A DNA stretch of 50,035 bases, taken from a virus. The stretch's first letter is position 1; the number at the start of each line of letters is the position of its first letter. Below, piece by piece: positions 2,078 to 29,259 of the stretch. The stretch is taken from the IMG/VR virus record IMGVR_UViG_3300028844_003046, positions 1-50,035 of that record; one strand, given 5' to 3'. Made by a program: the position numbers and the translations under genes. The notes beneath the pieces are model-generated. The model was not told the DNA's origin. It was given only the letters and a program-made list of their open reading frames with translations, and did no database searches.

Positions 2078-2275
2078 ATGCTCATATTAACTAGGAGATT
2101 GGGCGATTCGGTACTGTTGAAGTATCCCGGTGGACAGATCACCGTGACATACCTATCGCAACAAGGTCCTTCAGGCAACGAAGTCAGGATGGGATTCGAT
2201 GCACCGAAGGAAGTCAACATCGTTCGTAGCGAGATACTTGACCGCTACCCCGACGATAATAAAGGAGAAAAGTAA
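2078..2275 (+). CDS. csrA: CsrA-family RNA-binding translational regulator
   Basis: This 65-residue protein matches CsrA/RsmA along its length. The first strand is MLILTRRLGD with the RNA-contacting Leu4, Arg6 and Arg7. The last strand is APKEVNIVRSEI, where Arg50 corresponds to Arg44 of E. coli CsrA. Compared with the usual 61-residue form it has a few extra residues in the loops around residues 15-20 and 28-34. CsrA dimers bind GGA motifs in mRNA leaders and block or stabilise translation, so the phage copy probably reprograms host or phage messages. The ribosome binding site AAAGGGAG lies 6 bases before the ATG. The stop overlaps the next start (TAATG), so the two genes are translationally coupled. 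Confidence 0.93.
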   Translation: MLILTRRLGDSVLLKYPGGQITVTYLSQQGPSGNEVRMGFDAPKEVNIVRSEILDRYPDDNKGEK

Positions 2276-9326: not shown

Positions 9327-12098
9327 ATGGATGCCAAAGAATTCCTGCAACGAATACTACCTCAACATGGCAACTACTACGGTGCCGTTACTGGAAATAA
9401 CAGATTCAGTCAGCACAAACTACGAGACATCGACGCACTCGTATCATATGCAGATCGACTCAAGGCAAAGAGATGCGACCTGTACTTTGCGACTGGCAGC
9501 TTTGGCAGCCAGCGTACCGCAGACGAGTGTCAAAAAAAGCGGGCACTATATCTTGATATCGACTGCGGAGTGGGAAAGCTATATCAAGATAAGAAGGCTG
9601 CTATCACAGAACTTTTCAGTTTCTGTAAGGCCACCGGCTTCGCACGACCGAACATTCTAGTAGATAGTGGAGGAGGGATTCATGCCTACTGGACATTTAC
9701 GAATGAAGTATCCACTGAAGCATGGCTCCCGATGGCGACAGCACTTAAAGACCTGTGTGAGTTGCACGGGTTCGGAGCAGACCCCACCGTCACAGCCGAC
9801 GCCGCCCGTATCCTCAGAATCCCCGGGACATACAACCAAAAAGAAAACACGCCCCGCGAAGTAAAAATAATCCATGCATCAACCAAGGAATATAGTCCAA
9901 GCAAGCTGGGAAAACTTCTTGGCTCGACTCGATCACATTCCTTACAAACTCTCGGGGCTATGGCTTCGGAGAACGATGTTGCTTTCGAGGTTTCATCAGG
10001 AAAACCGTTCTTCGCAAACAAAATCTTGGAACGGTGCCATGTCCTTAAACATACTTATGAAACGGGCGGAGCCGACCAAGTGGAACCACTTTGGATGGCT
10101 CAACTTTCACTTATGGCATATGCGGCTGATGGTAGCGAGTATATACACGCTCTATCAGATCAACATGCGGACTATGATTACCGCCGCACGGAGAAGAAAT
10201 ACAATGCTCGCGTTCGTGTCAAGGACTCGGGCAAGTTTGGTCCGCCGCTGTGTAAAACTCTGGGTATGTATCTCCCCGACAAATGCAATTCTTGTCGATG
10301 GTCTGGGAAAATCAAGAGTCCGATTGTTCTGGGGCGCGAGGAAGATGGTTCTGAAATACCATTTCCGTACAAGCAAGATGATAAAGCCATTTATCGACTG
10401 GAGAAAAAGGAACTAGAAGATGGTCAGACTCAAGAGAAAGCTGTTAAGGTTTTGTCATTTGCTATTGAGAACTTCCAAGTATTCTCGTCGCCTGATCCTT
10501 CGGCGGGAATGGTATTCAGATTTTCTGTCGATGCGTACGGTTCGCGTGTCGTCACATTCACTACGAAGCACCTATGTGACAAGCGGATGCTCGTCGTCGA
10601 ACTCTCAAACGCAGACGTTCCCCTTCACTCACATGAATACCCCGGATTCGTTCAGCTCATGACAACGTGGGCAGACAAGATGGTGCAAGCTAAACAGGTA
10701 GGTAAGCCCACTGTTGCACTCGGTTGGAGTAAAGAGAAAGATGAAATTGCCTTCACCCTTATTGACCGTACGATCACTGAGGGCTCGGGGGATAAGGAAG
10801 TTACATTCCTTGACCGCGAGTTTGTTAAGGACTTCACTCCTCAGGGTGGCAGGGAGGCTTGGATTAAGCTCGCACAGTATCTTACTGCTGAAAACAGACA
10901 CGCCGTTACAGCGGGAATATTGTCGGCATTTGCTGCGCCGCTTATCACCTTCACAGGAGTGAACGGTTGTGTTCTTGCACTTGTGTCTGATAAGTCTGGT
11001 ACTGGCAAGTCCACTGCTTTACGCACAGCTCAGGCAGTCTGGGGTGATCCCCGGCGAGGGGTCAACGCGCTTGATGATACTCCTCTGTCTGTGGCCAATC
11101 GTATGGGCAAGCTTAATAATCTCCCAGCTTTTTGGGATGAACTAAGAATGAAAGATCAGGTCGAAAAATTCGTCCTGCTTATGTTCCAAGTGAGTCAGGG
11201 CAAAGAACGCTCACGACTCAAGTCCAACATTACCACGCAACACGTGGGCACTTGGAATACACTGATTACCGTGGCCTCGAATGAGTCCATCACAGATCAC
11301 GTACGTCATCTGGTACACGGAACGGATGCAGGGCTGCTTCGTGTGTTTGAGGTCACGGTTCCTTACTTGCAACGAGCCAAGGACATTGATGCTATGTCCT
11401 CTGCTCTTGATAAGAACTTCGGTCACATTGGTGGTGAGTACGCACGGTGGTTAGTAACCAATCACAAAACTGCACTCGCTCTGTTGGGAAAAGTGAAGGA
11501 CAAGTTCAGCTCCCGAGTTCATGCCGATTCTGCTGAACGGTTCTGGGTTGCTACTTGCAGTGCGCTACTCACCGCCGCCATCGTCACCAATAAGCTAGGC
11601 TTCACCGCTATTGACATTGACCAGTTCACAAGCTGGCTCGTTAAGGAGTTCCTTCGTAGTCGTTCGGAACAGACCATGGACTTTGATCCCATTGAGATCC
11701 GTGCCAAGAAGTATCTCTTTCAGTTCTTAGACATCCACAAAGATCAGCTCGTAGTGTTCGATCGTTTATCAGGTAGGGGTGTAGCATCAGTGGGCACCCT
11801 GCACTCGCCACTACCGAAGGGTGAGATACTAGGTGTCTACGCCAAAGAGGACAACAAGGTGAGGATAAAGAAGATGCCGTTTGTTCAGTGGGTGTACGAG
11901 CACCATAAGGAACCGCACACTCGGATGGTTGAGGCTCTTGTGAAGCAGAACTGTATCGAACGTAGAGCATCAGTATCCGTTGGTGTTGCTAACGCAGTGC
12001 AGTCGAGAGATGCGGTGATTGATATACCTCTGGACGACCCTACGTTTAGCGACGTTCTCGATCGTATTGACGCTGACGCCCTCTCCGACGAGACCTGA
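9327..12098 (+). CDS. primase-helicase (AEP-type primase plus P-loop helicase)
   Basis: This protein is 923 residues from ATG 9327, which has GGAG 10 bases upstream. ATG 9318 and an upstream ATG at 9291 are in frame but badly spaced or inside the hairpin. The N-terminal half has archaeo-eukaryotic primase signatures: LYLDID (D77, D79), SGGGIHAYW (H119) and an ARILRIPGTYN segment. A CNSC pair near 320-323 may bind zinc with C309. The C-terminal half has Walker A SDKSGTGKST (554-563) and Walker B-like FWDE (602-605), as in DUF927-type phage helicases. It should prime and unwind DNA for the polymerase. Its last 53 bases overlap the 3' end of the opposite-strand giant virion gene. Confidence 0.9.
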   Translation: MDAKEFLQRILPQHGNYYGAVTGNNRFSQHKLRDIDALVSYADRLKAKRCDLYFATGSFGSQRTADECQKKRALYLDIDCGVGKLYQDKKAAITELFSFCKATGFARPNILVDSGGGIHAYWTFTNEVSTEAWLPMATALKDLCELHGFGADPTVTADAARILRIPGTYNQKENTPREVKIIHASTKEYSPSKLGKLLGSTRSHSLQTLGAMASENDVAFEVSSGKPFFANKILERCHVLKHTYETGGADQVEPLWMAQLSLMAYAADGSEYIHALSDQHADYDYRRTEKKYNARVRVKDSGKFGPPLCKTLGMYLPDKCNSCRWSGKIKSPIVLGREEDGSEIPFPYKQDDKAIYRLEKKELEDGQTQEKAVKVLSFAIENFQVFSSPDPSAGMVFRFSVDAYGSRVVTFTTKHLCDKRMLVVELSNADVPLHSHEYPGFVQLMTTWADKMVQAKQVGKPTVALGWSKEKDEIAFTLIDRTITEGSGDKEVTFLDREFVKDFTPQGGREAWIKLAQYLTAENRHAVTAGILSAFAAPLITFTGVNGCVLALVSDKSGTGKSTALRTAQAVWGDPRRGVNALDDTPLSVANRMGKLNNLPAFWDELRMKDQVEKFVLLMFQVSQGKERSRLKSNITTQHVGTWNTLITVASNESITDHVRHLVHGTDAGLLRVFEVTVPYLQRAKDIDAMSSALDKNFGHIGGEYARWLVTNHKTALALLGKVKDKFSSRVHADSAERFWVATCSALLTAAIVTNKLGFTAIDIDQFTSWLVKEFLRSRSEQTMDFDPIEIRAKKYLFQFLDIHKDQLVVFDRLSGRGVASVGTLHSPLPKGEILGVYAKEDNKVRIKKMPFVQWVYEHHKEPHTRMVEALVKQNCIERRASVSVGVANAVQSRDAVIDIPLDDPTFSDVLDRIDADALSDET

Positions 12099-15000
12099 GA
12101 CGAGCTACGTCCCCCCTACTAATCCAATCGCTCCGCTTTTCAAGAGAGCGATTGAACTTTTGGATGTCTTCCCACACTTCTGCTTTTTCTTTAGCAGTCT
12201 CGGCAGCAAGAGCCAGAGCAACAAGGTTGCTCTTTCTTGTACTGCGCCGCTGTTCTCTGGCCATTAGGTTGTATTCATAGTCGGTAGTCATAGCTATACC
12301 AGTGGGGCGGAACCCCATTGCTGAACGAATCCAACCCGTTACATCTTCAGGTTCAATGAATGTCAGAGTGTCAGTTCCGACTCCTTCCATTTCATACTTC
12401 AACCCTCGAATCGCACCCCGCGCTGCTTTCAACGGTATTGCTGCCGCCGCAAAGTCATACCAGTTACCTCTTGGATCTCCTTTCCACAGGCGCGAACCTT
12501 CTCTTACCGTTGTTATGCCGTATTGAGCAACCGGCCCCAACGCTGTTGTCATCATTGTCTCTACACCCCCAGCGTCACTAAGATTGATACGGTCATTGCC
12601 CATCCATATCAAGTTACCGAGGTTGATAGATTTGCTCATGTCAACACCAAGTGCTGCAGGCACGCCGCGTGATGCTAGTGCTGCCACCGTGTCGTTAGCA
12701 ACATCCTGCAAGTACAACTCCACAGCTTCTTCAGGATCAAACTCATCTCCTGCTTCACGGAACGCTTGGTTAAATGCCCACACCAATGCTTGTACTGGGG
12801 CCATCATTAAACCACCCGCCACACCGCCGAAAACTGTATGCGTAGTAATCAAACCACCCGCCAGCTTCAGTGCCTCAACACGGCCACCTTTCTTGATAGC
12901 AACATCCATCATCGACCCATAGAGCAGCCGAGTCAGCCCAATGCCGTAGGACTTGAACATCATCATTGGTGTAATGATTGCTCGTAGCCCACCACCAGCC
13001 CATTTGGGGGCAGCCTTTAACAATCTCGCACGGTTAGCAGAGTCATAGTTGAACTGCGTCGCCTGCACACCGTCAGCTATTGCTTGCATGTCACCGTTCG
13101 ACAAGTAGTGGATAGCCAGCGCCGTGCTGATACGGTTGTACTTTTCAACACCTTCAGGAATAGTCTCCATGAGCTTGAGAGCAGTAGCCGTAGCCTTACC
13201 TACTGGGCCCGCCCACTCTTGTATTGATGTCAAAGTACTTGGCGTCATGATGTCACCGAACTGGTGAGCAATCGTTGACTGAATAATCCCTTGGGCTTCC
13301 AGATCAGCTACTACTTTCTGCGCAGCAGGGGGCAAGTTCTGTTTGAATTGGTCGTAGCTCTTTGCACCCTTGGCTGCCTTCAGTATGGTCCCAGCCGCTT
13401 GCATGTACGCAGCCGTGCCTTTCGCTCCCCACTTGGACCCAATGTACGGCAGTGTGACAGTGAGCGTCTGGGTAGCATTGAGCACCCAGTACGAGGGAGC
13501 GCCGAGGAAGTTGAAGAACCCGATAAGGCCAACGCCCTTCTGGAACTTACTCATCTCCCGATCCTTAGCGTCCTCTCTGTTCTGCGCAGCGAGTTCGTTA
13601 ACAACGTCACCAACCAGCAGTGCTTCGTCTTCAGTGATGCCTCCTTGTTGCAAGGCATCCTGCATACCTTTTGACTGTAGCTGTTTCAGATCTTTAAGGG
13701 CTTGGTGTACTTCATAAGAAGTAGCAAGGTCACCCAGTGTGTACTTGGTGACAAACACATACTCCTCAAAGGCACGCCCCATGTCATCAGCAGCAACACC
13801 ATCAATACCCATACGCTTCAACTGACTAGCGTATGCTGTGTTGTCTGCCATAATCTCAATCATCGCTGCTTGTAAACGCTTAGACATGTGATCTGATATG
13901 CCGTCTTTCCTTCTACCCATGCGTCCCGCAAGCTCAGCCGTCACCGACTCCACATCACGAGGGATCGACATTGATTCGATCTTTTTAGTGACGTATGTAG
14001 AAATCCCCAGCTTGTCTTCAAGTGCTGCAGCAACACGCTGGGCTTCCTTGCGTGTGTGATGGAATGATACGTATGGCTCACCATCTTCGTTATGCTCGTC
14101 GGTGCTTGACACTACGTACTTACCATAGCGACGTAATGGGAAGTATGGTCCCTTAACAGATGTACCCTTAATAATTTCTTCGGCGGTCTTCGCTATTGCA
14201 CGTCGTTCCTTCCACTCTTTCAGTTTTTCTTTCTTCTCCTCCTTAACTTCTTTGCTGTCTTTTTTATCAATGATGGTGTCAGCGGGGCGCGCACCATCCT
14301 CTACCAGATTGCCCTCGGTGTCATACATACCCGGGAACAGCTTCTGGATATCCTCTTTGCTTTCTACTTTGCCGAGTTGCTTAACAAGAGTAGAGTCAAT
14401 CTCGTACGTCTTGCCAACAGTACGCAGGGCTTCTATTCGTTTTCTATCCTGTATCTCCCTAGTCAGCATTGCCATTTCAATAAGTAGCTGTGCTGCCTCA
14501 GGGTTTGTTTTGTTCAGTGCCACCCAGTCTTTGCGGGCTTGCTTTGCAGCCTCACCCAGTAAAGTGCTTAGTTTACTCACGCCCTTCTTGTCGGGCTTGG
14601 ACCACAAGTGCTTGTTCTCTTTGGCACGGAGGCTGACGTGTGGCCACACCTGTGCAAGCGTGGTGTCAGCCATCAATTCAAGTACCTTAGCGCGTGACTT
14701 ATTATCCAACTTCTGCAGCTTCTTAAGTGCTGCTGTTGCTCGTACAGCAAATTCTTCTGCTAGCTGAGAAGCAGCTTGTTTCGCTTTGATGTATTGAGTC
14801 AGCGGGCTGAACGCATGTCCTGCTGCTTTAGCAGCCCGTCCAAACAACTCGCGGTAGTTACGCTCAATGACATCACGATTCATAAAGCCAAGGTTAATAG
14901 CACGGGGGAGGTTCTTTAGGCCATCGGCCAGTGTTTCAACTGCTTGCTTAACTTTACTATCACGTGCACGTGCAGCATCAGCCGTTCTGTTGACGACGTT

Positions 15001-18000
15001 CGTACGGACCTTCTTGTCAGGGATATCCTCCTGTGACAAGAACGGCTCCGCATACCCCTTCATCTTGTTCCCTTTACGAGTAATACTTTCGGCGTCAGCT
15101 TGAGTGGTGAACATCTGTTCAGTCCAGAACATCACTTCAAGCAACACTGAATTTCTTGGTGAGATGCCAAGGAACTTAGCAACTGCACCGATCAACACGG
15201 CAATAGCTGACGGGAACTTCTTACCTTGTTTGATCTGTGAACGCACAGAGGGGAGAAGTGTAGGAGCGTCTTCTACCTTCATGTTCCCTAAGAACTCTTG
15301 GAAGTATGGTTTGGTAAATGCCTCTGCCAAGAACTCCACAGGATTACTTAGGCCATAATATATAAAGCCAAGCCCTTGGCCTTTCTCCGCACCCCTATCT
15401 TTTTCTTTCATCCACAGAGTTATTTCATCAAACAGTTGTTTGTGCGCTGGTTCTCCCAAGGCTGACAAGTTGTTAGCCATCTCAATATATTTTTGTGCTG
15501 GGAAATCGGGGTGCATTTTCTGGAACTCAAGCAACGATTGCTTGTACAGCGTATTGATGTGCTGTTGAAAAGGTTTGTCAGTAGCGTATGCAAAGGTAGT
15601 AGCTGCGTGCACCATCTCATGCAAGACCGTGCGAACAAACGCTTCATCATGCCTAAGGTCTGTGTTGTATACGGCGGTAATTTTAGCATTAGCCGGATCA
15701 ATTCTATTTGTTTCTTTGTTGATGGGGTTGTACCCACCCATCTCCATAAAACCGTTTTCATTTATGAACGGCGAATCCTTCAACTGTATGGTTACACCAG
15801 TGAGGTTGAGCTTCATCAACATTCTTGAGAGGTGGGCGTACCTATGGTTTGAAGGTAACGCAGAGACAAACAGCTCAAGTATCTCCTGCATACTCGCCGT
15901 TGGTGTGTCAGGCCAGATGTCACTCGCCCGATTGTCCCTCTCAACCAGCGTCTCAATCTCAATGCGAATCTTATCCATCGCCTGCTTAAGAATGCGACGG
16001 TCCTGTTTGACTCGTGCACGCTTAGCACCGGTGAGGCTGGGATGAATGTCGTTGATAATATCGCGTAGGCGGCTGGCCCAGCTTACACCGAACTCGTCCA
16101 CTGTTGTCGTTTCAACGTCAATCTCTGGGTCAATAGCGCCGGTCATCCGAGCTATTTCAAGCTCATCCTCTGACATTGAAGAAGCAATGTCGTCCTCGAA
16201 TGACTTTTGTTCTGCTTCTATCTCAGCAAGACGCGCATCTCTACGCTCACTGATTTCAAGAGCAAACTCTGCGATCGTGTCATACACTTCAGGACTGACA
16301 CGTTTACCAACAATTTCAGTAATGTCTGATACCAGACGAATTGGGTCGGGAGTTCTAACGTGCCGGTATGCAGCCTCTACTATCTGGTCACGCTGTTCAG
16401 ATGAAACCGCCTTCATAATGCCACGGAGTTTTTTCACTGACGCTTTACTTACACCAATTTTCTCCAGTGCACGATCAAGCGCGCCTTGTCCCGGCTCTAC
16501 TCCGGCTGTTTCGGCAAGAGTTGCAGATTCTCTACCCACAATATTTTGTGGTTCTGGATCAAATATTTCTTCGGGTTTAACGTCAGGTTTTTTGGCTGCT
16601 TTTTTAGGCTTCTTCGCAGCTGTGCCTTTCGCTGCCACTCTCTTACCACCAACATAAACAGGGAGGCCAGTCTTACCCAGCTCTGCTATCTCCGCTTTAG
16701 TTAATGAGTCAGCGACAATAGCGACAGGCTTCATGCCCCCCGTTGCTACTCCATCATTTTGGTAGTCTTTAAGTGTGTACTCGTTCTTCTTATCAGCGAA
16801 CACAAGTACAACGTTACCAACGTCTCCGAGTACAGTGGCGGCTTGGCCCACCAAGTCAACAGATATGTTGGTGCCTTTCTTCAGCCCGTTCTTAACGATA
16901 CCTGCAACGTCAGCTATCTTACGAACAGCATGGTAGACATGTCCCTTCTGTAATTTCTTCGGGACATTCTTTTTGACCTCGGCAAGTATCTCTGCATTTT
17001 CTTCCGCGACCCCCTTTGCTATAGCTTCGGAATCAATACGACTCGCTTCATCAAAGACCGCTACTGCTAGCTCCGCTTGCTTGAGCTTATAAACCCCCTT
17101 CATCCCCAACGTTTTAGCTATGGCTCGTAGCTGGGTAACCGTGCCATAAGCAATGTCAACGCCACCGATGTACCCCCTAATAAGTCTACTCAACTTACGT
17201 GGGTCTGGGTTGTCTTCTATCAGCTTTCCGACTTCTGCCCTTCGCTCTTTATCGAAAGCGATCTTTTCTTTACGCTGTTCAGGCGATAGCTTGCCTTCTT
17301 CAGTAGGCGAAGGCTCAAGCATAGACTTTACATCCATACCTCCTTTCACGGCTTTCTGTGCAGCCGCTGCCTTGGCCTCAGAAGTTTCTGTTTTTGGCTT
17401 CGCAGGAGCCTCTGTAACGGGCGAACTCGCCTCGGGCTTAGCCTTACCCTTGGCTTTTTTGGCCTTATCTCCCCTTGCTTCGGCCTCTGCAAGCAGTGGC
17501 GTTACCTTCTCAGCAATGTCCCTGAGGTTGTTTGCCAGCTCAAGCAGAGTGCTAGCATTAAAACTAATTGTCTTTGTCTTGCCACCACCTTTTGTCTTTT
17601 TCTCAACAGGGGCTTGAGCCGCATCAGCTGCTCGGTCAGCCAATTCCATCGTCTTGCCATAGTTAGCGCCGATGCCTGCTTCTTCAAGTACACCAGCTTC
17701 TTCGGCTGCCTTGAGCAGCGCACGAACAGCTCCGGACAACTCGCCCAGTTTGTTCGCCATATTAATCTTGGTGCCTTTGAGTACATCTTTACCCTTGGTT
17801 AGCTTCCCCTTGCCTACAGTCTTAGCCTTTTCATAGAAGGCCATGAAGTTGTTGTACTCGGCTTGCACTTGCCCAGCAATGGAGTCGATAGGGGCATCAG
17901 TAAGAGAAGGTATAGTTCCCTGAACATGAGAAGTGAGTCGGTCAAGGGTTTGTATTACCTCTGCGGTCTTGCCTTCGGCAATACCATCAAGAAGTTTTTT

Positions 18001-20550
18001 AACTTCAGGCAAATCCTTGGTGAGATCTACTTCCTCTTGCAGTACTTTGAAAAACTTGGCAACACCAGTACCTGAAAATGTCCTAGCAGGTACTTTGGCA
18101 GCGGTATCTGGATAACGCTTCGCAAGCGTTTCCATCAAGTTTCGCCACGCGGTACGGACGGGGCCCGGTTCCTCGTTTGCCTGAATGGTTTCAGTTACTT
18201 TTGGTCCCAGCACCTTGGGGTCAATTAACGGCGACTCAGTCTCGACTTCCTCAGTAGCTGCTGCAGCTGCAGCTGCATCGTCGAGCATCTCCTCAACTGG
18301 AGTCTCCTCAACAACTTCTGAAGGACCCTCCTCCTGAGAGCTAGGCGCTTTAGTATCAGTAGGTTCTGGAGCGGTTGTCGCCGTTTCTGCTTCAGGAGGA
18401 GGGGGTTCTATTACTTGGTCTGCAGCTTCATCATCAACATTAACGTCGCCGGTGTCGGGTATGGATGTCTCAACGTCAGCGGGTACATCACCGGCTGACG
18501 ATGCATCAGCTGGGTCGCCAAGATCATCAACCTCGGACCAAGAACCGTCTGGGTTCCTCTTGACCTTAGGCTTCTTCGGAGGTGGCGTAGTGTCTTCTGG
18601 TTTATTACCGCCGAGGTCTTTGCCGGTGGCTTTGTTAATAGCCATCTCGCCAAGGCCCGGTACGATCTCACCAATGAACTCGCCAGCAACTGCGGCAGGG
18701 TCGTACTCTTGCCCTGCCATCTTCTGCGCCGATAGTTCACCCATGGCACCAGCCGTAGCTTGTGCCAGAATTTCAGAGGTGCCACCAACAACCGCACCGG
18801 TCTTCTTCGCTGCACCGGCGAGTGCTTTGATGGGTTTGAACATGCGGCCAGCGATACCCATAGATAGGGCATCCCATGCGGCCACACCAATGCCTCGCTC
18901 TCGGCCCAGCTCTCTTGCGGTTGCCATGAGCTCCTCATCAGCGAAGGCTTCTTTTAGTGCGTTGGAGTCAGTAGCGTCAACCCCGTGCTCAGTCAAAGCT
19001 TCCCCGATGCTGGCAAGATATTCAGTAGCGAACGAACCAAGACCCGCACCGGTCATACCACCAATGACTGTACCCACACCCGGAGCGGCAGCGGTTCCCG
19101 CTACAGATCCAGCGAGGCCACCAGCCAGCGGCGCTGCTGACATAGGCAAACTTTCAACTACAACCTGCATAGCGAGGGCAGGATTGGTTATGTAGTACCC
19201 AAGAGCATCCCAGAAACCTTCAGATTCCTGTAGTTCCGCAAGGCGAGCAGCATCCTCCTCAGATACTTCCCATTTCTTCAGCGCTTCGGCTCCCTCCGCG
19301 TACTCCTCAGTGTCACCCTGAGCCAGATCAATCAGCTGGCCTGCACGCAAGAGGCCCCGCATCAATGCGTGCTTGATACCCCAACCATAGTTGTCTTCTT
19401 TCTCAGCCGCGACAGGTACGTAAGTCTCCCAGTCATCAGCATTGAACTCTTGCTGCTGTTGCTCGGTGCCTTGCTTTTGTTGGGCTGATTGCCAATCAAG
19501 CTGACCAAGTACAGGGTCGTCCTGCAAATAGGGGATGTTCTTGTTGAATGCTGTATCAACTGCACCGGCAATGCTTTCGTCTGTTGGTATTGCAAAGCCG
19601 CCAGTATACTGGGCCGTAGCCAGAGCTTCAGATAACCCGCCACTTGCTCTGCCAGCCATGTCATCAAGGTAGTTGGCAGTTTCCTCTGGTAGAACAGACT
19701 TCCAGTTAGCGCCGTGTTCTCTTACTGCCTTATCGACATTACCCATGCCCCAGTTATAGGCAGCAGCCATCAGTTCTCGATTACCTTTGTACTTTTCTTT
19801 CAGTAACGCTAGGTATCTGACACCACCACGAACGTTTTGTTCGTCGTCCATACGGTTAGAGACACCCATGTCCTTAGCTGTACCGGGCATCAATTGCATT
19901 AAACCTTCAGCGCCAGCCGAAGATACTTGGTTGCTTCTACCACCAGACTCTTGCGTCATGTAGTCGGCAACGAGCTGAGAGCTTAAGTCATACTGTTTGG
20001 CATATTTATTAATCAGATCTTTACGGCGCTGAACAGCATCGGGGACACCAACAATCTCGACCCCTTCACCCCAGCCGACAGCTAATTGTTTTGCTTCTTC
20101 AGGGCTGGCTACAACTGACTCTCGTTGAACAGCACCTTCGGGGGTTTTCTTTTGGACAACAAGCGCACCTTCCTCACTTGCAGGTTTTCCCTTACCAGAG
20201 AGAGTGAGTGCACCAATAATTTCTTGGTTTGTACGTCCAGAGGTCTGCTCTTTTAGTGCTCTGTCCGCTACTTTCTGGTCACGAGCAATGAGGGTGCCAC
20301 CCTTACCATCAAAGTCTTCAATGACAACAGACCCCGGAGGTTTCTTCTCAGGAACTTCAACCTGTTCCGGAGACAAGTACACAGCCTGACGCTCGCTATT
20401 GGAGGCGAGGTCCTGCAACTGGGCCTCAATATCCATAACCGGCTCAGCACTGGGGGTGTCTAGTGCGTCCGGTAGTGCCCCCTGTGGAGCATCATCCCAT
20501 GAATATACTTCCCATTTGCTAGGATCAAAATCGTCTGGGTTCGCTGCCAT
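12046..20550 (-). CDS. giant polyvalent internal virion protein with transglycosylase and metallopeptidase motifs
   Basis: At 2834 residues this is far longer than T7 gp16. Residues 178-300 are an SLT lytic transglycosylase: E201 in TQESGGR, then GLMQLMPGTA and AAAYNWGMGNV. A Gly/Ala-rich hydrophobic region follows at about 455-520. A low-complexity acidic/Pro linker lies at about 685-780 and Lys/Ala linkers near 1090. An ART-like segment (HVYHAVRKI) starts near 1204. A zincin motif HEMVH (1644-1648) is followed by NPVEFLAEAF, a likely third ligand. The C-terminal 600 residues contain hydrophobic helices such as GVGLIGFFNFLGAPSYWVL. This is the plan of polyvalent proteins ejected with phage DNA: wall opening, membrane passage and effector domains. 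The start has AAGGA nearby and follows the 523-residue gene in the same operon. Confidence 0.9.
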   Translation of the reverse strand: MAANPDDFDPSKWEVYSWDDAPQGALPDALDTPSAEPVMDIEAQLQDLASNSERQAVYLSPEQVEVPEKKPPGSVVIEDFDGKGGTLIARDQKVADRALKEQTSGRTNQEIIGALTLSGKGKPASEEGALVVQKKTPEGAVQRESVVASPEEAKQLAVGWGEGVEIVGVPDAVQRRKDLINKYAKQYDLSSQLVADYMTQESGGRSNQVSSAGAEGLMQLMPGTAKDMGVSNRMDDEQNVRGGVRYLALLKEKYKGNRELMAAAYNWGMGNVDKAVREHGANWKSVLPEETANYLDDMAGRASGGLSEALATAQYTGGFAIPTDESIAGAVDTAFNKNIPYLQDDPVLGQLDWQSAQQKQGTEQQQQEFNADDWETYVPVAAEKEDNYGWGIKHALMRGLLRAGQLIDLAQGDTEEYAEGAEALKKWEVSEEDAARLAELQESEGFWDALGYYITNPALAMQVVVESLPMSAAPLAGGLAGSVAGTAAAPGVGTVIGGMTGAGLGSFATEYLASIGEALTEHGVDATDSNALKEAFADEELMATARELGRERGIGVAAWDALSMGIAGRMFKPIKALAGAAKKTGAVVGGTSEILAQATAGAMGELSAQKMAGQEYDPAAVAGEFIGEIVPGLGEMAINKATGKDLGGNKPEDTTPPPKKPKVKRNPDGSWSEVDDLGDPADASSAGDVPADVETSIPDTGDVNVDDEAADQVIEPPPPEAETATTAPEPTDTKAPSSQEEGPSEVVEETPVEEMLDDAAAAAAATEEVETESPLIDPKVLGPKVTETIQANEEPGPVRTAWRNLMETLAKRYPDTAAKVPARTFSGTGVAKFFKVLQEEVDLTKDLPEVKKLLDGIAEGKTAEVIQTLDRLTSHVQGTIPSLTDAPIDSIAGQVQAEYNNFMAFYEKAKTVGKGKLTKGKDVLKGTKINMANKLGELSGAVRALLKAAEEAGVLEEAGIGANYGKTMELADRAADAAQAPVEKKTKGGGKTKTISFNASTLLELANNLRDIAEKVTPLLAEAEARGDKAKKAKGKAKPEASSPVTEAPAKPKTETSEAKAAAAQKAVKGGMDVKSMLEPSPTEEGKLSPEQRKEKIAFDKERRAEVGKLIEDNPDPRKLSRLIRGYIGGVDIAYGTVTQLRAIAKTLGMKGVYKLKQAELAVAVFDEASRIDSEAIAKGVAEENAEILAEVKKNVPKKLQKGHVYHAVRKIADVAGIVKNGLKKGTNISVDLVGQAATVLGDVGNVVLVFADKKNEYTLKDYQNDGVATGGMKPVAIVADSLTKAEIAELGKTGLPVYVGGKRVAAKGTAAKKPKKAAKKPDVKPEEIFDPEPQNIVGRESATLAETAGVEPGQGALDRALEKIGVSKASVKKLRGIMKAVSSEQRDQIVEAAYRHVRTPDPIRLVSDITEIVGKRVSPEVYDTIAEFALEISERRDARLAEIEAEQKSFEDDIASSMSEDELEIARMTGAIDPEIDVETTTVDEFGVSWASRLRDIINDIHPSLTGAKRARVKQDRRILKQAMDKIRIEIETLVERDNRASDIWPDTPTASMQEILELFVSALPSNHRYAHLSRMLMKLNLTGVTIQLKDSPFINENGFMEMGGYNPINKETNRIDPANAKITAVYNTDLRHDEAFVRTVLHEMVHAATTFAYATDKPFQQHINTLYKQSLLEFQKMHPDFPAQKYIEMANNLSALGEPAHKQLFDEITLWMKEKDRGAEKGQGLGFIYYGLSNPVEFLAEAFTKPYFQEFLGNMKVEDAPTLLPSVRSQIKQGKKFPSAIAVLIGAVAKFLGISPRNSVLLEVMFWTEQMFTTQADAESITRKGNKMKGYAEPFLSQEDIPDKKVRTNVVNRTADAARARDSKVKQAVETLADGLKNLPRAINLGFMNRDVIERNYRELFGRAAKAAGHAFSPLTQYIKAKQAASQLAEEFAVRATAALKKLQKLDNKSRAKVLELMADTTLAQVWPHVSLRAKENKHLWSKPDKKGVSKLSTLLGEAAKQARKDWVALNKTNPEAAQLLIEMAMLTREIQDRKRIEALRTVGKTYEIDSTLVKQLGKVESKEDIQKLFPGMYDTEGNLVEDGARPADTIIDKKDSKEVKEEKKEKLKEWKERRAIAKTAEEIIKGTSVKGPYFPLRRYGKYVVSSTDEHNEDGEPYVSFHHTRKEAQRVAAALEDKLGISTYVTKKIESMSIPRDVESVTAELAGRMGRRKDGISDHMSKRLQAAMIEIMADNTAYASQLKRMGIDGVAADDMGRAFEEYVFVTKYTLGDLATSYEVHQALKDLKQLQSKGMQDALQQGGITEDEALLVGDVVNELAAQNREDAKDREMSKFQKGVGLIGFFNFLGAPSYWVLNATQTLTVTLPYIGSKWGAKGTAAYMQAAGTILKAAKGAKSYDQFKQNLPPAAQKVVADLEAQGIIQSTIAHQFGDIMTPSTLTSIQEWAGPVGKATATALKLMETIPEGVEKYNRISTALAIHYLSNGDMQAIADGVQATQFNYDSANRARLLKAAPKWAGGGLRAIITPMMMFKSYGIGLTRLLYGSMMDVAIKKGGRVEALKLAGGLITTHTVFGGVAGGLMMAPVQALVWAFNQAFREAGDEFDPEEAVELYLQDVANDTVAALASRGVPAALGVDMSKSINLGNLIWMGNDRINLSDAGGVETMMTTALGPVAQYGITTVREGSRLWKGDPRGNWYDFAAAAIPLKAARGAIRGLKYEMEGVGTDTLTFIEPEDVTGWIRSAMGFRPTGIAMTTDYEYNLMAREQRRSTRKSNLVALALAAETAKEKAEVWEDIQKFNRSLEKRSDWISRGDVARLRSRRRGRQRQYDRERR
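12125..12164 (+). terminator. possible terminator of the rightward replication operon
   Basis: CAATCGCTC (12125-12133) pairs perfectly with GAGCGATTG (12146-12154) across a 12-base loop, followed by AACTTTTGG on the plus strand. It lies 27 bases past the primase-helicase stop, inside the coding region of the opposite-strand giant gene. The T-run is short, so efficiency is uncertain. Confidence 0.45.
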
Positions 20551-20559
20551 TGCAGATCC

Positions 20560-22131
20560 TTATGAATGGGTCGCTTGTCTACGACGTTCGGCTTCCTGAT
20601 CGGCCTGCATTTGTGCTGCCCTTTCGTTTACAGGCAGTGCTGCGGCATCCTGTTGCCACTGGTAGTTAGGGTCCATCGGGTCAGTAGCCATTGCAGGTGA
20701 GTTCTGCGAAGTGGTGTTCCCACCCTCCGTCAGTTTGAAGTTTGCTATTGCATCCTGCTTCAAAGATGGCGGCAGCCTAAAGCGTTGGCCATCATAAACA
20801 GCAAGGACATCCCCAGTTTCTTTGTTCCTCATTACTTTGAAATCAGGAGCGTGCTCTTGCAAATCGAGGCCACCGGGCTGTCTTATAAGCTGAGAAATAA
20901 TGGCGGCCTTATCATAGTCGAGAGTGTTTGTCCCGTTGCGGCCCGGACCCTGTTCCAGCACCAACTGGGAAACATCAGACTTAAACTTACCTTTTTCCTG
21001 TGGGTGCTCGTTAAGATAGCTATCTACTTCAGGTGTTATTGCTTCAAATTCATTCATGAAGTAGTCATTAGCGCCTTTGATTATCTGTACAGACTGACCG
21101 GGGTCCCAGCCAAGGTCACCAGCTCTAGCATGTGCAGCGGCATCGCGTCGTCCTAGTGCAGATATAACAGATGCCAGTGCTTGTGTAGTAGCTGCATCAG
21201 CCCGCTGCCCAGCATACTTAGAGGTTTCTTTTTGTGCTTCAGCTACCATTCTACTTGAAGATGCGTTGGTCTGAGCAATACCTTCATCGACTACATTCTT
21301 ACGCTCAGTCTCATGCTGTTTCTTCCAGTCGAGGTACGATTCAGGTGTCTTCATGTGCTGGTCAGTAAAGGCCCTGAGGTGATCGGCATTAAGAGGCTTG
21401 TCGCTCCGCTTGCCGTCCTTGCCTTGCATATAGAGCTCGCCATTGTGTGCAACGAACTGGAGACCAGTATCAAAGGGGGTCACTTCAAGTGCGGCGTTGC
21501 CTGCACGCATGGCCTCCCCAACCATACCCTTATCCAAAGCATCAACAGCCTGAAGTGCATACCCCATCACCTGACGACGAGAGGTGGCGTTCTCCATCTC
21601 CTGAAATTTTGAATACCCTTCCAGCCCGCCTGTAAGGATGGCGTATCTGGCGGTGTCGTTGTACCAGTCGTTGTAACGCTCACGCCTTGTCGTTTGCGGC
21701 ACGGGTGCCTGCTGTTGTGGCTGTGGCAACGCCTGCTGTTGTGGCTGTGGCAACGCCTGCTGCGGCTGAGCCTGTGGTACTTCCATTGCGCCACCATCTG
21801 CGGCACCGGGCATACGGTTCACTACAGGAGCAACGCCCGGAATTGCGTACTGGTTCTGCGGTACTGCGGGAGCTGGCTGTTGGGCTACAGGCCCTGCACC
21901 AGACGCAAACGCTTTCCACTGCTGAAACTGCTGCGGATCTTCAAGCATCCCACGCAGCTTGTACCTTTCAGAAAAACCCTTCAGCCACTGGTGTTGTTCG
22001 GCATCGCGGCCTTCTTTCGCTTCGTTAATGACGCGCTCAGATTTTGACGATGCCCTGTCTTCTCTGGCATTCAACCCTTCAGTAACACCGGGGCCAACTC
22101 CTGCCAATGCTCCTAGTATTCCTGCACTCAT
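20560..22131 (-). CDS. putative internal virion protein, 523 residues
   Basis: This protein lies directly upstream of the giant protein, in the place of an internal core protein such as T7 gp15, so a role in the ejected inner-virion complex is inferred. The N-terminus is Gly/Ala-rich. Residues about 115-150 are a Gln/Pro repeat tract (QQALPQPQ units). The rest is helical with Ala/Gln-rich heptad-like stretches (about 270-330) and a C-terminal Gln/Arg-rich tail. No enzyme motif is seen. Its ATG overlaps the stop of the upstream 355-residue gene (ATGA). Confidence 0.75.
   Translation of the reverse strand: MSAGILGALAGVGPGVTEGLNAREDRASSKSERVINEAKEGRDAEQHQWLKGFSERYKLRGMLEDPQQFQQWKAFASGAGPVAQQPAPAVPQNQYAIPGVAPVVNRMPGAADGGAMEVPQAQPQQALPQPQQQALPQPQQQAPVPQTTRRERYNDWYNDTARYAILTGGLEGYSKFQEMENATSRRQVMGYALQAVDALDKGMVGEAMRAGNAALEVTPFDTGLQFVAHNGELYMQGKDGKRSDKPLNADHLRAFTDQHMKTPESYLDWKKQHETERKNVVDEGIAQTNASSSRMVAEAQKETSKYAGQRADAATTQALASVISALGRRDAAAHARAGDLGWDPGQSVQIIKGANDYFMNEFEAITPEVDSYLNEHPQEKGKFKSDVSQLVLEQGPGRNGTNTLDYDKAAIISQLIRQPGGLDLQEHAPDFKVMRNKETGDVLAVYDGQRFRLPPSLKQDAIANFKLTEGGNTTSQNSPAMATDPMDPNYQWQQDAAALPVNERAAQMQADQEAERRRQATHS
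21707..21762. repeat. 24-bp tandem repeat inside the 523-residue virion gene
   Basis: Two perfect 24-base units (21707-21730 and 21731-21754) and an 8-base partial third encode repeated QQALPQPQ. The exact identity suggests recent slippage; copy number may vary between relatives. Confidence 0.9.
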
Positions 22132-23195
22132 TGGATGATCCCTCCCATTTGCTGCGTTGGCATGGGCTGCGCCGGTTGGTCTACATCGGTCGGGATGGGG
22201 ATGGCCTGCTTAGAACTTGGAGGCGGCCGACCGGTTTCTTTCTCAATCATCTTGTCGAAATGGTTTGTTCCCAATTTCCTGACAACATCGGCTGGTATCA
22301 CGTACTCGCCATCACTGATAGCCACGGCTCCAGCGTCGTCTGTTGGCCCACCCGGAGCCATAACGGGCCCACCGTCTGCCACAGCTGCTAGCTGGCCTGC
22401 GCTTTGGCCAACAGCCATCATGTTGTTGAAGTTCTGCTGCCCAGCTGCGTTGTTGATTTCAGTACGCTGCAGGTCTCGGCCATAAGCCGTGTCCACAATG
22501 CCTGCACCGAGATCGTATCCCTGATAGGCACCCTGAAGGTAAGGTATGGCACCCTGTGCTACCTGTGCCCCGCCGACAGTTGCTCCAGTGGCTGCATTGA
22601 GAGCTGCGCCACCGACATTTGCTCCCATCGCAGTTGCCTGCATAGCCTGACCAGCTATGTTCTGGCCAACGCCTACAGCACGTGCTGTAAGGTCACGACC
22701 AATCTGCTTGGTGCGTTCGCCTGCTTGGTTAGCAGCGAGAGCGCTCATAGCGGCCTCTGCAACTCCCGCCTGCTTATCCAGCGCCGCATAGCGCAAGTCT
22801 GAAGCGTCTACGCCATAGCTCTCAAGCTTGCGCTCTTGGGCCTCTCGTTGAGCCTGAGTAGCAGACTTGACATCCTGAACTGCGGCGGCCCTCTGTCTCT
22901 GCTCCTCACCTTTCGAGGAATACAGAGCCGCATCGGAGAACATTGACTCCATGGCGGGGACGACCTTCTGGTCATAGAAGTCTTTCTGCTCAGCAGCCCA
23001 GCCAAACATATCCTCCATGGCAGGCATAGCGGACCCCATGACTTGGGACCCCCATTGCTGCAACTTGCCCCACTCTTGCTGGCCAGTTTCCCACATTGAC
23101 TTCGCCCAGTTAGAAGACATTCGGGCGTCGGCCATCGCTGCATCAGAATATTTACTAGTATCAGGCGGCGGCGGAGCGTTGCTTGCACTTCCCAT
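22128..23195 (-). CDS. putative virion (inner core or tail) protein, 355 residues
   Basis: The start is ATG 23195, with GAGGG 7 bases upstream; an in-frame TTG at 23201 is less well spaced. The N-terminus has a Pro stretch (APPPPD), then amphipathic helices rich in Trp/Gln/Met. A long Ala/Gln helical region follows (about 85-240) with Gly-Ala repeats. A C-terminal segment has DGGPV-x3-GG, SDGEYVIPADVVRKLG and a Pro/Gln tail. The last motif (sDGEyVip.dvv..lG) recurs in phage internal and tape-like structural proteins. The likely role is as part of the protein set ejected with DNA. The family name is unknown. Its 5' end overlaps the GNAT gene. Confidence 0.72.
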   Translation of the reverse strand: MGSASNAPPPPDTSKYSDAAMADARMSSNWAKSMWETGQQEWGKLQQWGSQVMGSAMPAMEDMFGWAAEQKDFYDQKVVPAMESMFSDAALYSSKGEEQRQRAAAVQDVKSATQAQREAQERKLESYGVDASDLRYAALDKQAGVAEAAMSALAANQAGERTKQIGRDLTARAVGVGQNIAGQAMQATAMGANVGGAALNAATGATVGGAQVAQGAIPYLQGAYQGYDLGAGIVDTAYGRDLQRTEINNAAGQQNFNNMMAVGQSAGQLAAVADGGPVMAPGGPTDDAGAVAISDGEYVIPADVVRKLGTNHFDKMIEKETGRPPPSSKQAIPIPTDVDQPAQPMPTQQMGGIIQ

Positions 23196-23619
23196 CTTCA
23201 ATCCCTCTTAACCAGCGACACTGTTCCTGTGTCATAGAAAGTATGTACATATCACCCCTGTCATACGCATCTTCAATTATGGCTTCCAACTTAAAACCAA
23301 GGCGCATATCCATCGAAAGGGCTTTCACGTTTTCACTGCATACAGTTGCCAGCACTTTCTTGACACGAAGGTCATGGAAAGGATACTCGAAAACTGCTTG
23401 AATTGCTCGTCTTGACACGAACTTAGGGTCATCGATAGCCACGTGCATTTTGATGCTACCGCCCACCTCATAGTCGTCGTAGACAACCCCCCACTTTGGT
23501 TTCCACTGGGCATCCACCACACCCATACATGACTTGCCGTGCTCATACCACAAGCCTGTGCCCATGCGCTCCCATACCCATGGGCCTATCAACTTTATGT
23601 CAGAGCAGTTCGGTGTCAT
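23161..23619 (-). CDS. GNAT-family N-acetyltransferase
   Basis: This 152-residue protein has the GNAT core: strand IKMHVAID, then HDLRVKKVLATVCSENVKALSMD and LGFKLEA, the typical acetyl-CoA-binding helix and the N-x2-A...LGF motif, ending with GDMYILSMTQEQ. Such proteins transfer acetyl groups from acetyl-CoA to amines. Here the substrate may be a virion or host protein; similar GNATs occur in podovirus structural clusters. Its stop lies 35 bases inside the next virion gene and its start overlaps the preceding small gene (ATGA), so it is expressed with late genes, not early ones. Confidence 0.82.
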   Translation of the reverse strand: MTPNCSDIKLIGPWVWERMGTGLWYEHGKSCMGVVDAQWKPKWGVVYDDYEVGGSIKMHVAIDDPKFVSRRAIQAVFEYPFHDLRVKKVLATVCSENVKALSMDMRLGFKLEAIIEDAYDRGDMYILSMTQEQCRWLRGIEDGKCKQRSAAA

Positions 23620-23841: not shown

Positions 23842-24312
23842 CTACGCTGCTGTAACTGTGGCTTCGCCCGTATAGTACGCCGAAGCTATGACTGGTGATG
23901 TTGTTCCTGTTGCATAAAGCTCAAAAAGGCTTGTTGAAGTAACTACACCGGGGACCATGCCTCCTTGACCATTTCTCCATATCCGCTCAACATCCAGCTT
24001 CAAGTAGGTCCCCAACGTGTCCGGTTGGACCTGCCAAGTTGTACCAGAAAACAAAGATGCTTCACGGATGTCATAAAAGGCCCCAATATTAGTGACCGGC
24101 TCATTGGGATACCATTCACCCGACACAAACAAAGTCCTATTGGCAACTAAAGGCCCCAAATCGTAAACTTGGCCATTAGGGTGAAACGTGACACCGGCGT
24201 TGGTTGCAACTTCTTCTTGACTGTGTGCAGAGATCTGATTAGACAAAGCACCAATAGAAGTGTTCAGCCCCTTACTTATCAGAATGGTAGATTGAAAATG
24301 TGAGATAGTCAT
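23842..24312 (-). CDS. beta-rich virion protein, paralogue of the 24719-25174 product
   Basis: This 156-residue protein's core AGVTF-x3-G-x-x-YD-x-GP-x3-A-x-RT-(I/L)-FV-x-GEW, YDIR(E/Q)ASLF and VERIWR is shared with the 151-residue protein 400 bases away. The two are clear paralogues flanking an unrelated 132-residue gene. Thr/Ser/Gly/Val-rich strands suggest a beta-sandwich typical of small fibre or decoration proteins. Location downstream of the long fibre-like genes suggests a tail-tip or adhesin subunit or its assembly factor. The start overlaps the previous stop (ATGA). Confidence 0.72.
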   Translation of the reverse strand: MTISHFQSTILISKGLNTSIGALSNQISAHSQEEVATNAGVTFHPNGQVYDLGPLVANRTLFVSGEWYPNEPVTNIGAFYDIREASLFSGTTWQVQPDTLGTYLKLDVERIWRNGQGGMVPGVVTSTSLFELYATGTTSPVIASAYYTGEATVTAA

Positions 24313-24718: not shown

Positions 24719-25174
24719 TTAGTTACTCGCCTCTGCAGTATAAGTCGCAGTATCAATTGCCGAACCAGAACCAGTGTCTCGTACCTCAAAGCTCCCAGAT
24801 GCCGACGAAACATTGGGTGCTGACATCGCGGTGACGTTACAACGCCAGATCCTTTCCACGCTTATCTGTACCCAAGTACCTACCGTTGCCGCCTGTTGGG
24901 TCCAAGTGCCAGTGAACAGCGATGCCTGACGGATATCATAGCTTGATCCAATACCAGTGTCAGGCTCATCCGGCCACCACTCACCGGCGACAAATATGGT
25001 TCGGTCGGCTAAGGCTGGTCCCATATCATAACATTCCCCATCGACATTAAAGGTAACGCCAGCAAAACATACGCCGCCGGTGTTATTGTGCTCTGAAAAT
25101 CCACCACTAAGAGCGGGCGAGGTGCCTGACGGAGAATACAAAACGCGCTTAACTGAAAAACCCGACAGGCTCAT
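24719..25174 (-). CDS. beta-rich virion protein, paralogue of the 23842-24312 product
   Basis: This 151-residue protein starts at ATG 25174, which overlaps the stop of the 884-residue fibre gene (ATGA); the 15-codon upstream extension is shadow. The core AGVTFNVDGECYDMGP, IFVAGEWWPDEP and ASLFTGTW aligns with the 156-residue copy. The N- and C-termini diverge. Thr/Ser/Gly-rich beta structure is expected, and coupling to the fibre gene suggests a fibre-associated or tip protein. Not assigned to a named family. Confidence 0.72.
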   Translation of the reverse strand: MSLSGFSVKRVLYSPSGTSPALSGGFSEHNNTGGVCFAGVTFNVDGECYDMGPALADRTIFVAGEWWPDEPDTGIGSSYDIRQASLFTGTWTQQAATVGTWVQISVERIWRCNVTAMSAPNVSSASGSFEVRDTGSGSAIDTATYTAEASN

Positions 25175-27831: not shown

Positions 27832-29259
27832 TCAGAACGTGCCACCATCAAAAGTCGTTTCGTGTAGGTAAGCCGGTACTACTGCTAATACTGCTGAAGC
27901 TTCAGCATCGACCTCGGACTGGTCTGCGATTTCGATATACCCTGCAACGGTTTCAGATGCTGGTCCGATGTTGTTCTGTACAGTGGTCCAGTCAGCAAGT
28001 GCCGCTGCACTGTCAATTTCAGCGATCAGGACATCACCAATTTCTACTGCTTCAGTAAAGAAGTTGCCTGCTGCTGTGACGGTGTAGGTATCACCTTTTG
28101 TTACGCCAGAGGGGGCAACGTCCAAATCAGGTGTGTTAGTCGCAGCGTTGTACCCTCCTTGGTATGTCATCGCCCCGCCTGCCCCGAAGGGGAGGTCGGA
28201 TACTAAGCCTTTCTTAACGTTGGTGTCTGTTGCGTCATGATAAATGATCGTGTCAGACAGCGATATTGCTGTGCCTTCAAGGTCCGTTGCCACATCAATA
28301 AGATTATCGGTGCCAAGATAATCAATGCCAACTGTTGGGTTAGTGGCTGTGCCTGCTACGGTGATACCGGCAGAGGCTGTTGCAGTAACCGACTGGACAG
28401 ATACGAGAGGGTCTGCGTCACCCCACACCCAGAACTCAGCATCTGCATATTTATAAACTGTGACAATGCCACCCTGTTCAACGGTGACACTGCCACTAAC
28501 GGGTGCTGCACCAGAGGCTAAGAACAGGACACTTGCCGTGCCTGCTGTAATCTCAATGCTATCCGTGCCTTCATTGAAAACACAGTATGTAGCGCCAACA
28601 GGGATGTTTGTGTCGCTATTGCAGGTGAAGTTGACTGCTGTACCGGCGTCGCGGTGCCACATCATTCCGTTATGGGCAAGATCAAATGCGTCGTCTGCAT
28701 CGACCTCGTAGACTGGCATGACGTTAAAGCCAATTGGACGCTCTACATCCGTACCATCTTTGACACGACCACCCGTACCGAAGTCTGCCGTAGTTACAAC
28801 TCCGTCTAACGTCCACGTACCAGTAATGACTTCAGTAGCTGATTTATCTACGGCATTAGAAATAAGAAAGCTGTTAGCATCAGCATCAATCGCACCAGTA
28901 CCGTTCCACGTAGTGATAAAATTGTCTGTGCCCGTGCCGCTTGGGTATCCAAGATCATCGTCAAATATACTCAGCGGTGTAGCGCTGAACAGTACGCGTT
29001 TGCCCTGACTATCAGAAGCATCTTCAAACACCATGTAGTCAGAAGTGATTGGAGTTGCAGCGGCAAGGCCAGCAGTTGGTTCAGCAGGTGCACCATTCAA
29101 GTTACGGATTAATTTGAATACAGTTGGCCCTGTTGTACCGACCCAGAACTCGTTAAGGCCGTTTGGAGAACCAGATTCAGAGTTAGCTAACTCACCTTGG
29201 AGCAAACTAGTGGGTTCGTTTGTAGAAGCAGATCTTTTGATCCGAAGTGTATTAGCCAT
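27832..29259 (-). CDS. tail-fibre-like protein sharing a module with the 884-residue fibre
   Basis: This 475-residue protein's N-terminus MANTLRIKRSASTNEPTS with GELANSE parallels the neighbour's fibre N-terminus. Residues about 145-282 contain the shared NVMPVYEVD...VEQGGIVTVYKY module. The C-terminal part carries AMTYQGGYNAATNTPDLD and ADWTTVQNN, a segment often found at fibre ends, plus a final SEVDAEASAVLAVVPAYLHET region. It is expected to be part of a tail fibre or its side branch. Its start overlaps the upstream stop (TAATG), so its level follows the 373-residue protein. Confidence 0.8.
   Translation of the reverse strand: MANTLRIKRSASTNEPTSLLQGELANSESGSPNGLNEFWVGTTGPTVFKLIRNLNGAPAEPTAGLAAATPITSDYMVFEDASDSQGKRVLFSATPLSIFDDDLGYPSGTGTDNFITTWNGTGAIDADANSFLISNAVDKSATEVITGTWTLDGVVTTADFGTGGRVKDGTDVERPIGFNVMPVYEVDADDAFDLAHNGMMWHRDAGTAVNFTCNSDTNIPVGATYCVFNEGTDSIEITAGTASVLFLASGAAPVSGSVTVEQGGIVTVYKYADAEFWVWGDADPLVSVQSVTATASAGITVAGTATNPTVGIDYLGTDNLIDVATDLEGTAISLSDTIIYHDATDTNVKKGLVSDLPFGAGGAMTYQGGYNAATNTPDLDVAPSGVTKGDTYTVTAAGNFFTEAVEIGDVLIAEIDSAAALADWTTVQNNIGPASETVAGYIEIADQSEVDAEASAVLAVVPAYLHETTFDGGTF
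28415..28828. repeat. 414-bp module, copy B, shared with 26627-27040
   Basis: Equal-length partner of copy A in the neighbouring fibre gene, giving direct evidence of intragenomic duplication within the adhesin block. Substitutions are spread along the block, suggesting an old duplication maintained by selection or gene conversion. Confidence 0.85.

Follow-up and report, generated by a model that had tools for sequence, protein, structure and literature searches.

A 2,834-residue PLxRFG-family giant of a podovirus-like phage, probably an ejected polyvalent protein with exchangeable cargo

The IMG/VR virus record IMGVR_UViG_3300028844_003046, whose 50,035 bases are the window analysed here, raises the question of what a single, very long late protein does for the phage that encodes it. 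Positions 12046-20550 of the minus strand form one unbroken open reading frame (ORF) of 2,834 codons with its start at 20550; the plus strand across the same interval contains many stops, and stop-free runs reached at most 266 codons when the window was shuffled 20 times by mononucleotide. A sequence-only reading had proposed a single long chain here, which the ORF confirms once read on the minus strand, and had described it as a polyvalent protein that enters the cell with the DNA. The latter view fits what we found, namely multiple domains, adjacent late virion genes, homology to DarB-like/PLxRFG proteins and two conserved neighbours. The chain unites several biochemically unrelated domains: an SLT domain, a zincin-like region (recognised by residue conservation only) and a PLxRFG domain. 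On balance, we favour the interpretation that this uncultured, podovirus-like phage carries the giant in its virions and ejects it as a polyvalent protein, probably a self-processing carrier with exchangeable cargo. Its parts, defined in part by comparison with two IMG/VR relatives (L009 and L010), are as follows (residues in amino acids).

12046-20550, minus strand: giant polyvalent (PLxRFG-family) protein, 2,834 residues (ORF, homology searches, NCBIfam NF032893)
19657-20022, minus strand: SLT lytic transglycosylase domain, residues ~177-298, with Glu201 and GLMQLMP at 216-222 (Pfam PF01464, PDB matches, motifs)
18574-19317, minus strand: N-terminal module, residues ~412-659, Gly/Ala-rich and then a conserved, predicted-soluble stretch (profile matches, PHROG 9880)
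17461-18153, minus strand: segment conserved in L009 and L010, residues ~800-1030, no family (alignments)
16591-17403, minus strand: variable slot, residues ~1050-1320, unlike L009 and L010 (alignments, searches)
17059-17142, minus strand: weak Rho_N/SAP-like match, residues 1137-1164 (PF07498, 18.6 bits against a cut-off of 24.9)
16621-16968, minus strand: orphan slot segment, residues ~1195-1310, presumed to be the ADP-ribosyltransferase (ART) candidate of the sequence-only reading (no significant family match)
15886-16575, minus strand: segment conserved in L009 and L010, residues 1326-1555, no family (alignments)
15151-15885, minus strand: zincin-like metallopeptidase region, residues ~1556-1800, with HEMVH at 1644-1648 and distal Glu1739 (and Glu1743) (conservation, weak Pfam SprT-like match)
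14152-14973, minus strand: divergent LPD39-equivalent region, residues ~1860-2133 (aligned with relatives in the protease alignment)
12061-14151, minus strand: PLxRFG ("tail-700") domain, residues 2134-2830, with PLRRYG at 2138-2143 (NCBIfam NF032893, PHROG 10089)

The SLT identity of the N-terminal domain is certain. Pfam PF01464 matches residues 179-282 (19705-20016, minus strand) at E 1.4e-22 and 79.8 bits (cut-off 21.3), the motifs QESGG (200-204) and GAEGLMQLMP (213-222) are in place, and Slt enzymes in the PDB match the region with a best E of 1.8e-8, bearing out the transglycosylase that had been placed near the N-terminus. We take Glu201 to be the catalytic glutamate, as in the SLT family, and presume that E-S and GLMQ, both family motifs, play their family roles. 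The domain looks like an optional addition to PLxRFG giants. A C-terminal alignment scan kept the best 80 of 312 encoding stretches, and the records of 62 of these 80 loci were tallied; an SLT was present in 4 of the 62 (1 of 13 in one set, the window aside, and 3 of 50 in the other, the sets overlapping by one SLT-negative record), the absences being soft inasmuch as records may be fragments. In one of the four (L088) the SLT lies within a giant-sized frame of 4,545 codons. The records of L073, L048 and L045 carry it in a separate frame (977, 1,064 and 1,405 codons, respectively) beside the PLxRFG giant, which is a split form of the fused pairing.

The C-terminal third, previously read as membrane-active, proved instead to be a PLxRFG domain. 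NCBIfam NF032893 matches it at 214.8 bits (cut-off 100; E 2.2e-63) over positions 1-667 of 681, PHROG 10089 ("DarB-like antirestriction") matches at E 2.9e-13, and the last ~700 residues are homologous to those of giant DarB-like/PLxRFG proteins at about 19-23% identity. Stretches of 19 residues with a mean hydropathy of at least 1.6 occur twice in the chain (1233-1251 and 1779-1797) and nowhere in its last third; among relatives, L009 and POI1126 each have one hydrophobic stretch near the C-terminus, and L010, TM29 and LASTA have none. Positions P, L, R and G of the PLxRFG motif are invariant in 57 aligned sequences, collected by a scan that used this motif as one of its two patterns; filtering at 85% redundancy reduced 78 C-terminal segments to 56. 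C-terminal identity to the window is 57% for L009 and 47% for L010, and 22-27% for the other 78 of the best 80 loci. The C-terminal domain is predicted to be almost entirely helical, by a model of fair confidence (pLDDT 78.8, pTM 0.73). Fold comparison at E <= 0.001 gave 34 matches in BFVD, several of them named "large polyvalent protein associated", and none in the PDB; a second fold search gave at best Z 6.0 over 75 residues, perhaps a common helical arrangement only, and the absence of a fold family excludes nothing.

Immediately upstream, residues ~1860-2133 are possibly a divergent LPD39 member, since they align with relatives that match LPD39 (PF18858). The window's own record has no PF18858 match, and the other five of six records match at E <= 10 (L009 at 6e-6), three of them, all more distant relatives, over the cut-off. 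The long linkers that had been described are likewise present and are of biased composition; residues 701-800, for example, contain 27 D/E, and 80 of these 100 letters are drawn from AGPSTEKQD.

Comparison with L009 and L010 separates a conserved carrier from an exchangeable part. L009 and L010 are co-linear with the giant over residues 1326-2834 (47.7%) and 1322-2834 (38.2%), respectively, and align with it over 318-1024 (47.3%) and 398-1048 (27.2%). They differ from it in two respects: their records, possibly fragments, have no SLT match and no alignment crosses the SLT, and the slot of about 270 residues is not conserved in either of them, its flanks being conserved. Neither phages (best E 0.9) nor plasmids (best E about 5) yielded a credible homologue of the slot; 2 of the 3 plasmid tblastn rows at E 5-6 were rho genes.

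The HEMVH region is probably a zincin-like protease, judging by residue conservation. The motif, already pointed out in the sequence-only reading, is present at 1644-1648 and belongs to a zincin-type pattern: across an alignment of 15 sequences, 14 of them from relatives and one from the window, H1644, E1645, H1648 and E1739 are invariant and E1743 is nearly so; Glu1739 lies 95 residues after the first His of HEMVH. This alignment excludes TM29 as well as L026 and L027, which are weak (E 4e-4) and alike. HEXXH with a distal Glu is the residue pattern of zincin-like peptidases in polyvalent proteins (PMC5512222). At the composition of the chain HExxH is expected 0.021 times by chance and arose in 100 of 5,000 shuffles; HExxHAAT arose in none of the 5,000. 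A profile of the region matched 18 of 89 proteins at E <= 0.01, including its 4 seeds, and HExxH was kept in all 14 non-seed matches. Pfam gave a SprT-like match below its cut-off (E 0.0031). The model of the region had no PDB match at E <= 0.001, and a model of residues 1060-2145 gave an uninformative best Z of 7.3, reached over 70 helical residues.

The giant is the final gene of a leftward late-gene block that runs portal, major head protein, virion proteins, GNAT, 357-residue virion protein, 523-residue protein, giant, so that portal, major head protein and virion proteins all lie upstream on the same strand. The portal is of the SU10 type (Pfam E 1.1e-11); among the phage records compared, its nearest counterpart is in the RHph_TM29 group of Rhizobium phages (46%), HMO-2011-type podophages being more distant (about 24%). 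Three neighbours bear on the placement of the giant.

20560-22131, minus strand: 523-residue gene directly upstream, possible virion partner (36% identical to its L009 counterpart, E 3.6e-48)
22128-23201, minus strand: 357-residue virion protein (PHROG 8003 "virion structural protein", E 2e-33; BcepIL02 gp66, E 4.7e-11)
23161-23619, minus strand: GNAT-type acetyltransferase, 152 residues (homology to annotated GNAT/N-acyltransferases)

Homologues of the GNAT protein were found in LASTA (6e-14), TM29 (6e-21) and BcepIL02 (1.3e-12), and two neighbours are homologous to gp65 and gp66 of BcepIL02, a Bcep22-like phage. The GNAT and 357-residue proteins thus also accompany DarB-like/PLxRFG giants in other podophages, and because two neighbours are kept in this way, the reading as a polyvalent, putatively ejected protein is well supported. 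The 523-residue protein had no phage-record match at E <= 1 and no homology to BcepIL02 gp69; its gene occupies the position of JC1 gp68. In JC1, also Bcep22-like, CsCl-purified virions are reported to contain the DarB-like gp69 (4,515 residues, 51 unique peptides) and its neighbour gp68 (510 residues, 9 unique peptides) (PMC9144972). The DarB protein of phage P1 is carried in the phage head and is believed to pass into the host cell (PMC9024508).

The scheme that we infer from this observed anatomy extends to virion location, cell entry, proteolysis, the roles of the modules and the function of the cargo. The protein would be packaged with the genome, and the PLxRFG module and/or N-terminal sequences would be responsible for packaging and ejection. 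On infection the SLT at the N-terminus would open peptidoglycan locally, and the Gly/Ala-rich N-terminal module might aid passage of the chain across the envelope. The zincin-like domain would then cut the chain (less likely a host protein), freeing the slot at 1050-1320 as cargo. Self-processing is a role proposed by Iyer et al. for polyvalent-protein proteases (PMC5512222).

Several points weigh against this interpretation. The virion location of this giant is a prediction from sequence. The 4,667-residue giant of BcepIL02, which is of the JC1 type, was unmatched by the C-terminal, N-terminal, protease and LPD39 profiles at E <= 1, so the JC1 proteomic precedent is one of position and kind, not of giant homology. 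The MPTase-PolyVal profile (PF18818) matched neither the window record nor any of 5 relatives at E <= 10, and the protease model was poor (pLDDT 61.2, pTM 0.38). The slot contrast involves two close relatives only, whose records may be fragments. No cargo activity was identified, scans of Pfam, PHROG, PADLOC and NCBIfam yielding no effector family, and the NCBIfam name "tail-700" is compatible with a purely structural role.

That last point leads to the strongest alternative, unlikely in our judgement, in which the giant is a structural or ejection-channel protein only: the SLT would serve wall passage, the rest would be scaffold, the protease would act at most in virion maturation, and there would be no effector. 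T7 gp16 is usually described as such a structural/ejection-channel protein. This alternative gains from the naming of the C-terminal domain and the lack of effector families in the chain scans, from PHROG 342 ("internal virion protein with endolysin domain"), which aligns over 176-543 at E 3.7e-4, and from a related SLT in "internal virion protein D" of an uncultured phage (30% identity, E 1e-17); it is harder to reconcile with a C-terminal module that also sits on methylase/helicase (LASTA) and pyrophosphatase (TM29, douglas) domains, or with a slot that differs between close relatives, unlike the remaining chain. The F116/H66-type giant, a closer homologue than that of JC1, is described as structural in phage H66 (PMC5217972).

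It is rather improbable that the effector is the zincin-like domain, cleaving a host protein once inside the cell. Iyer et al. list host-protein cleavage as a possibility for polyvalent metallopeptidases (PMC5512222), but no host target is known for this domain, and the protease region is broad among phages, being shared by 18 of 89 proteins and, in addition, by CP2, which lacks the PLxRFG module. Such broad sharing fits processing of the chain better than a single host target.

The ADP-ribosyltransferase-like segment of the sequence-only reading found no support. At E <= 10 the ART-PolyVal profile (PF18760) left the window's record unmatched, no candidate being raised, and the segment scan showed no match either; since this profile does match DC33 (E 7.9e-21) and L108 (3.4e-19), it detects such domains where they exist. 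Our own profile of four ARTs (DC33, L108, L111 and L114) scored below zero bits per domain on the slot, and its E of 0.05 against the whole slot in a 3-sequence set was not above noise. That the slot is an ART is thus very hard to believe: the VYHAV sequence (1205-1209) might echo the His found in the first strand of HYD-type ARTs (motif after PMC5512222), but the other two motif residues could not be located in the slot, and both PF18760 and the four-ART profile fail on it. Of the segments named in the sequence-only reading, the SLT and the zincin-like protease find support here, and the ART and the membrane-active C-terminus do not.

Within our preferred interpretation of an ejected carrier, the N-terminal module (412-659) connects the giant to a wider set of proteins. 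It had no Pfam or NCBIfam match, and its supported PHROG matches are all without a named function (e.g. PHROG 9880, E 1.2e-5). A profile built from the window, L009 and L010 matched DC33 (6e-23), CP2 (5.1e-20) and ctfjg026 (7.8e-19), three giants outside the PLxRFG group that were picked for the profile test since tblastn had flagged them. Thirteen loci emerged from a further scan, 12 of them new and the other the L009 record once more; 3 of the 12 new ORFs were cut by a contig end, and the uncut ones, which fall in few lineages and are not 9 independent cases, had HExxH downstream in 9 of 9 and the PLxRFG module in 0 of 9. Conversely, within the 80 PLxRFG loci a 12-sequence profile found the module only in L009 and L010. 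L044, matched at E 1e-8 with a 6-sequence profile and unlisted with 12 sequences, was not counted. In a Pfam scan of seven giants bearing the module, DC33 and L108 carried LPD22 and ART and CP2 carried LPD22, and no polyvalent domain was recognised in L105, L106, L112 or ctfjg026. The module thus ties PLxRFG giants to ART-carrying giants.

Kinship of this module with the N-terminus of the N4 virion RNA polymerase is suggestive at best. A collinear weak match was obtained by hhalign with the 12-sequence profile (E 0.021, probability 2.3%), and the 6-sequence profile gave a probability of 0.2% (E 0.39). One of 200 block shuffles scored as high, but across 30 columns rather than 117, and the reversed alignment comparison was 19.3 against 22.9. 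The hidden Markov model of the module scored at noise against N4 itself. PHROG 2206 ("virion RNA polymerase") weakly touches residues 409-611 (E 0.21) and 1610-1819 (E 0.13). A relation between the C-terminal modules of the two proteins is unsupported (score 25.4, with 3 of 60 shuffles higher); for the F116-like homologue, an N4-type C-terminal domain match has been reported (PMC5217972).

These comparisons allow a broader conjecture, speculative and on the whole doubtful, that phages have a general chassis for delivery. Residues 412-659 would be its header for crossing the envelope, and the other parts would be a slot for exchangeable cargo, a zincin that cuts its own chain and, at the C-terminus, a module for packaging. 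Several unrelated classes of ejected giants would have this header in common, perhaps including the N4 virion RNA polymerase, and the slot of this phage would hold an effector of unknown kind. If this layout of header, slot, protease and packaging part is true, the slot is a direct place to seek unknown early effectors, and the giant is a model, found in nature, for delivering proteins together with phage DNA.

Other searches of the window were less informative. PADLOC gave nothing at E <= 1, and weak Pfam matches (HsbA, Urocanase, GvpG, SpoVIF and others), all below cut-off, were rejected. Scans with a few exact peptide patterns, by which only close relatives can be found, gave no relative of the whole chain, the slot or the protease region in viral_contigs, and no match to the 1326-2834 alignment or the N-terminal module in genome_contigs; as the latter returned nothing, no prophage and no host were found.

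Elsewhere in the window, three minus-strand proteins that resemble tail fibres (25171-27825, 27832-29259 and 33895-34974) share, by eye, a near-repeated block around GTGGRVKDG, which suggests duplication of a fibre module. Judged by eye, two small proteins that lie close together (23842-24312 and 24719-25219, minus strand) may be paralogues. Near the right end, 48911-49906 (minus strand) reads by eye as terminase-like, possibly running on into the ORF at 49741-50028 through a frameshift or at the record edge. A 65-residue protein at 2078-2275 (plus strand) presumably resembles CsrA. JC1 virions include a CsrA-like protein, gp47 (PMC9144972).

The giant belongs to a known class and is new in its arrangement rather than in kind. 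The polyvalent class was described by Iyer in 2017 (PMC5512222), and published work also places a transglycosylase at the N-terminus of the Bcep22 giant and reads that of Atu_ph08 as cell-wall hydrolase plus peptidase (PMC6630229). The suggestion that the exact mix may be undescribed therefore holds in part: the class and several pairings are published, and the exact domain order without methylase-helicase, the slot contrast with L009 and L010 and the shared N-terminal module were not found described in a limited search of open-access literature. A previously unannotated giant is now assigned to a defined family, its conserved carrier and exchangeable parts being separated by comparison.

How, then, does it compare with known systems? 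The N4 virion RNA polymerase is a giant virion protein which, like the window protein, has an HExxH (at 2228 in N4) and a Gly/Ala-rich N-terminal segment; unlike it, the window protein has no RNA polymerase family at E <= 1. The giants of Limnohabitans phage DC33 and Xanthomonas phage CP2 share the N-terminal module with HExxH downstream, and differ in having no PLxRFG-profile match, LPD22 in both and a genuine ART-PolyVal in DC33. The DC33 record (L091) is classed as Inoviridae; its 39-kb genome and 3,125-residue polyvalent protein look like those of a tailed phage. The C-terminal PLxRFG module is shared with LASTA (Klebsiella, 4,433 residues), Erwinia Pavtok, Ochrobactrum POI1126 and Rhizobium RHph_TM29 (2,328 residues), and is also found in the giants of douglas 12A4 and 1F273_PE002. 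TM29 and douglas have an InPase (pyrophosphatase) domain upstream of the C-terminal part, which the window protein does not. LASTA differs in carrying methylase/helicase families in its giant, whereas the scan of the window protein showed no DarB-type adenine methylase or SWI2/SNF2 helicase at E <= 1. Both LASTA and TM29 nevertheless keep the GNAT and 357-residue neighbours; TM29 adds the HEATHAAT protease pattern and the closest portal found (46%), and LASTA, like the window protein, bears an N-terminal SLT.

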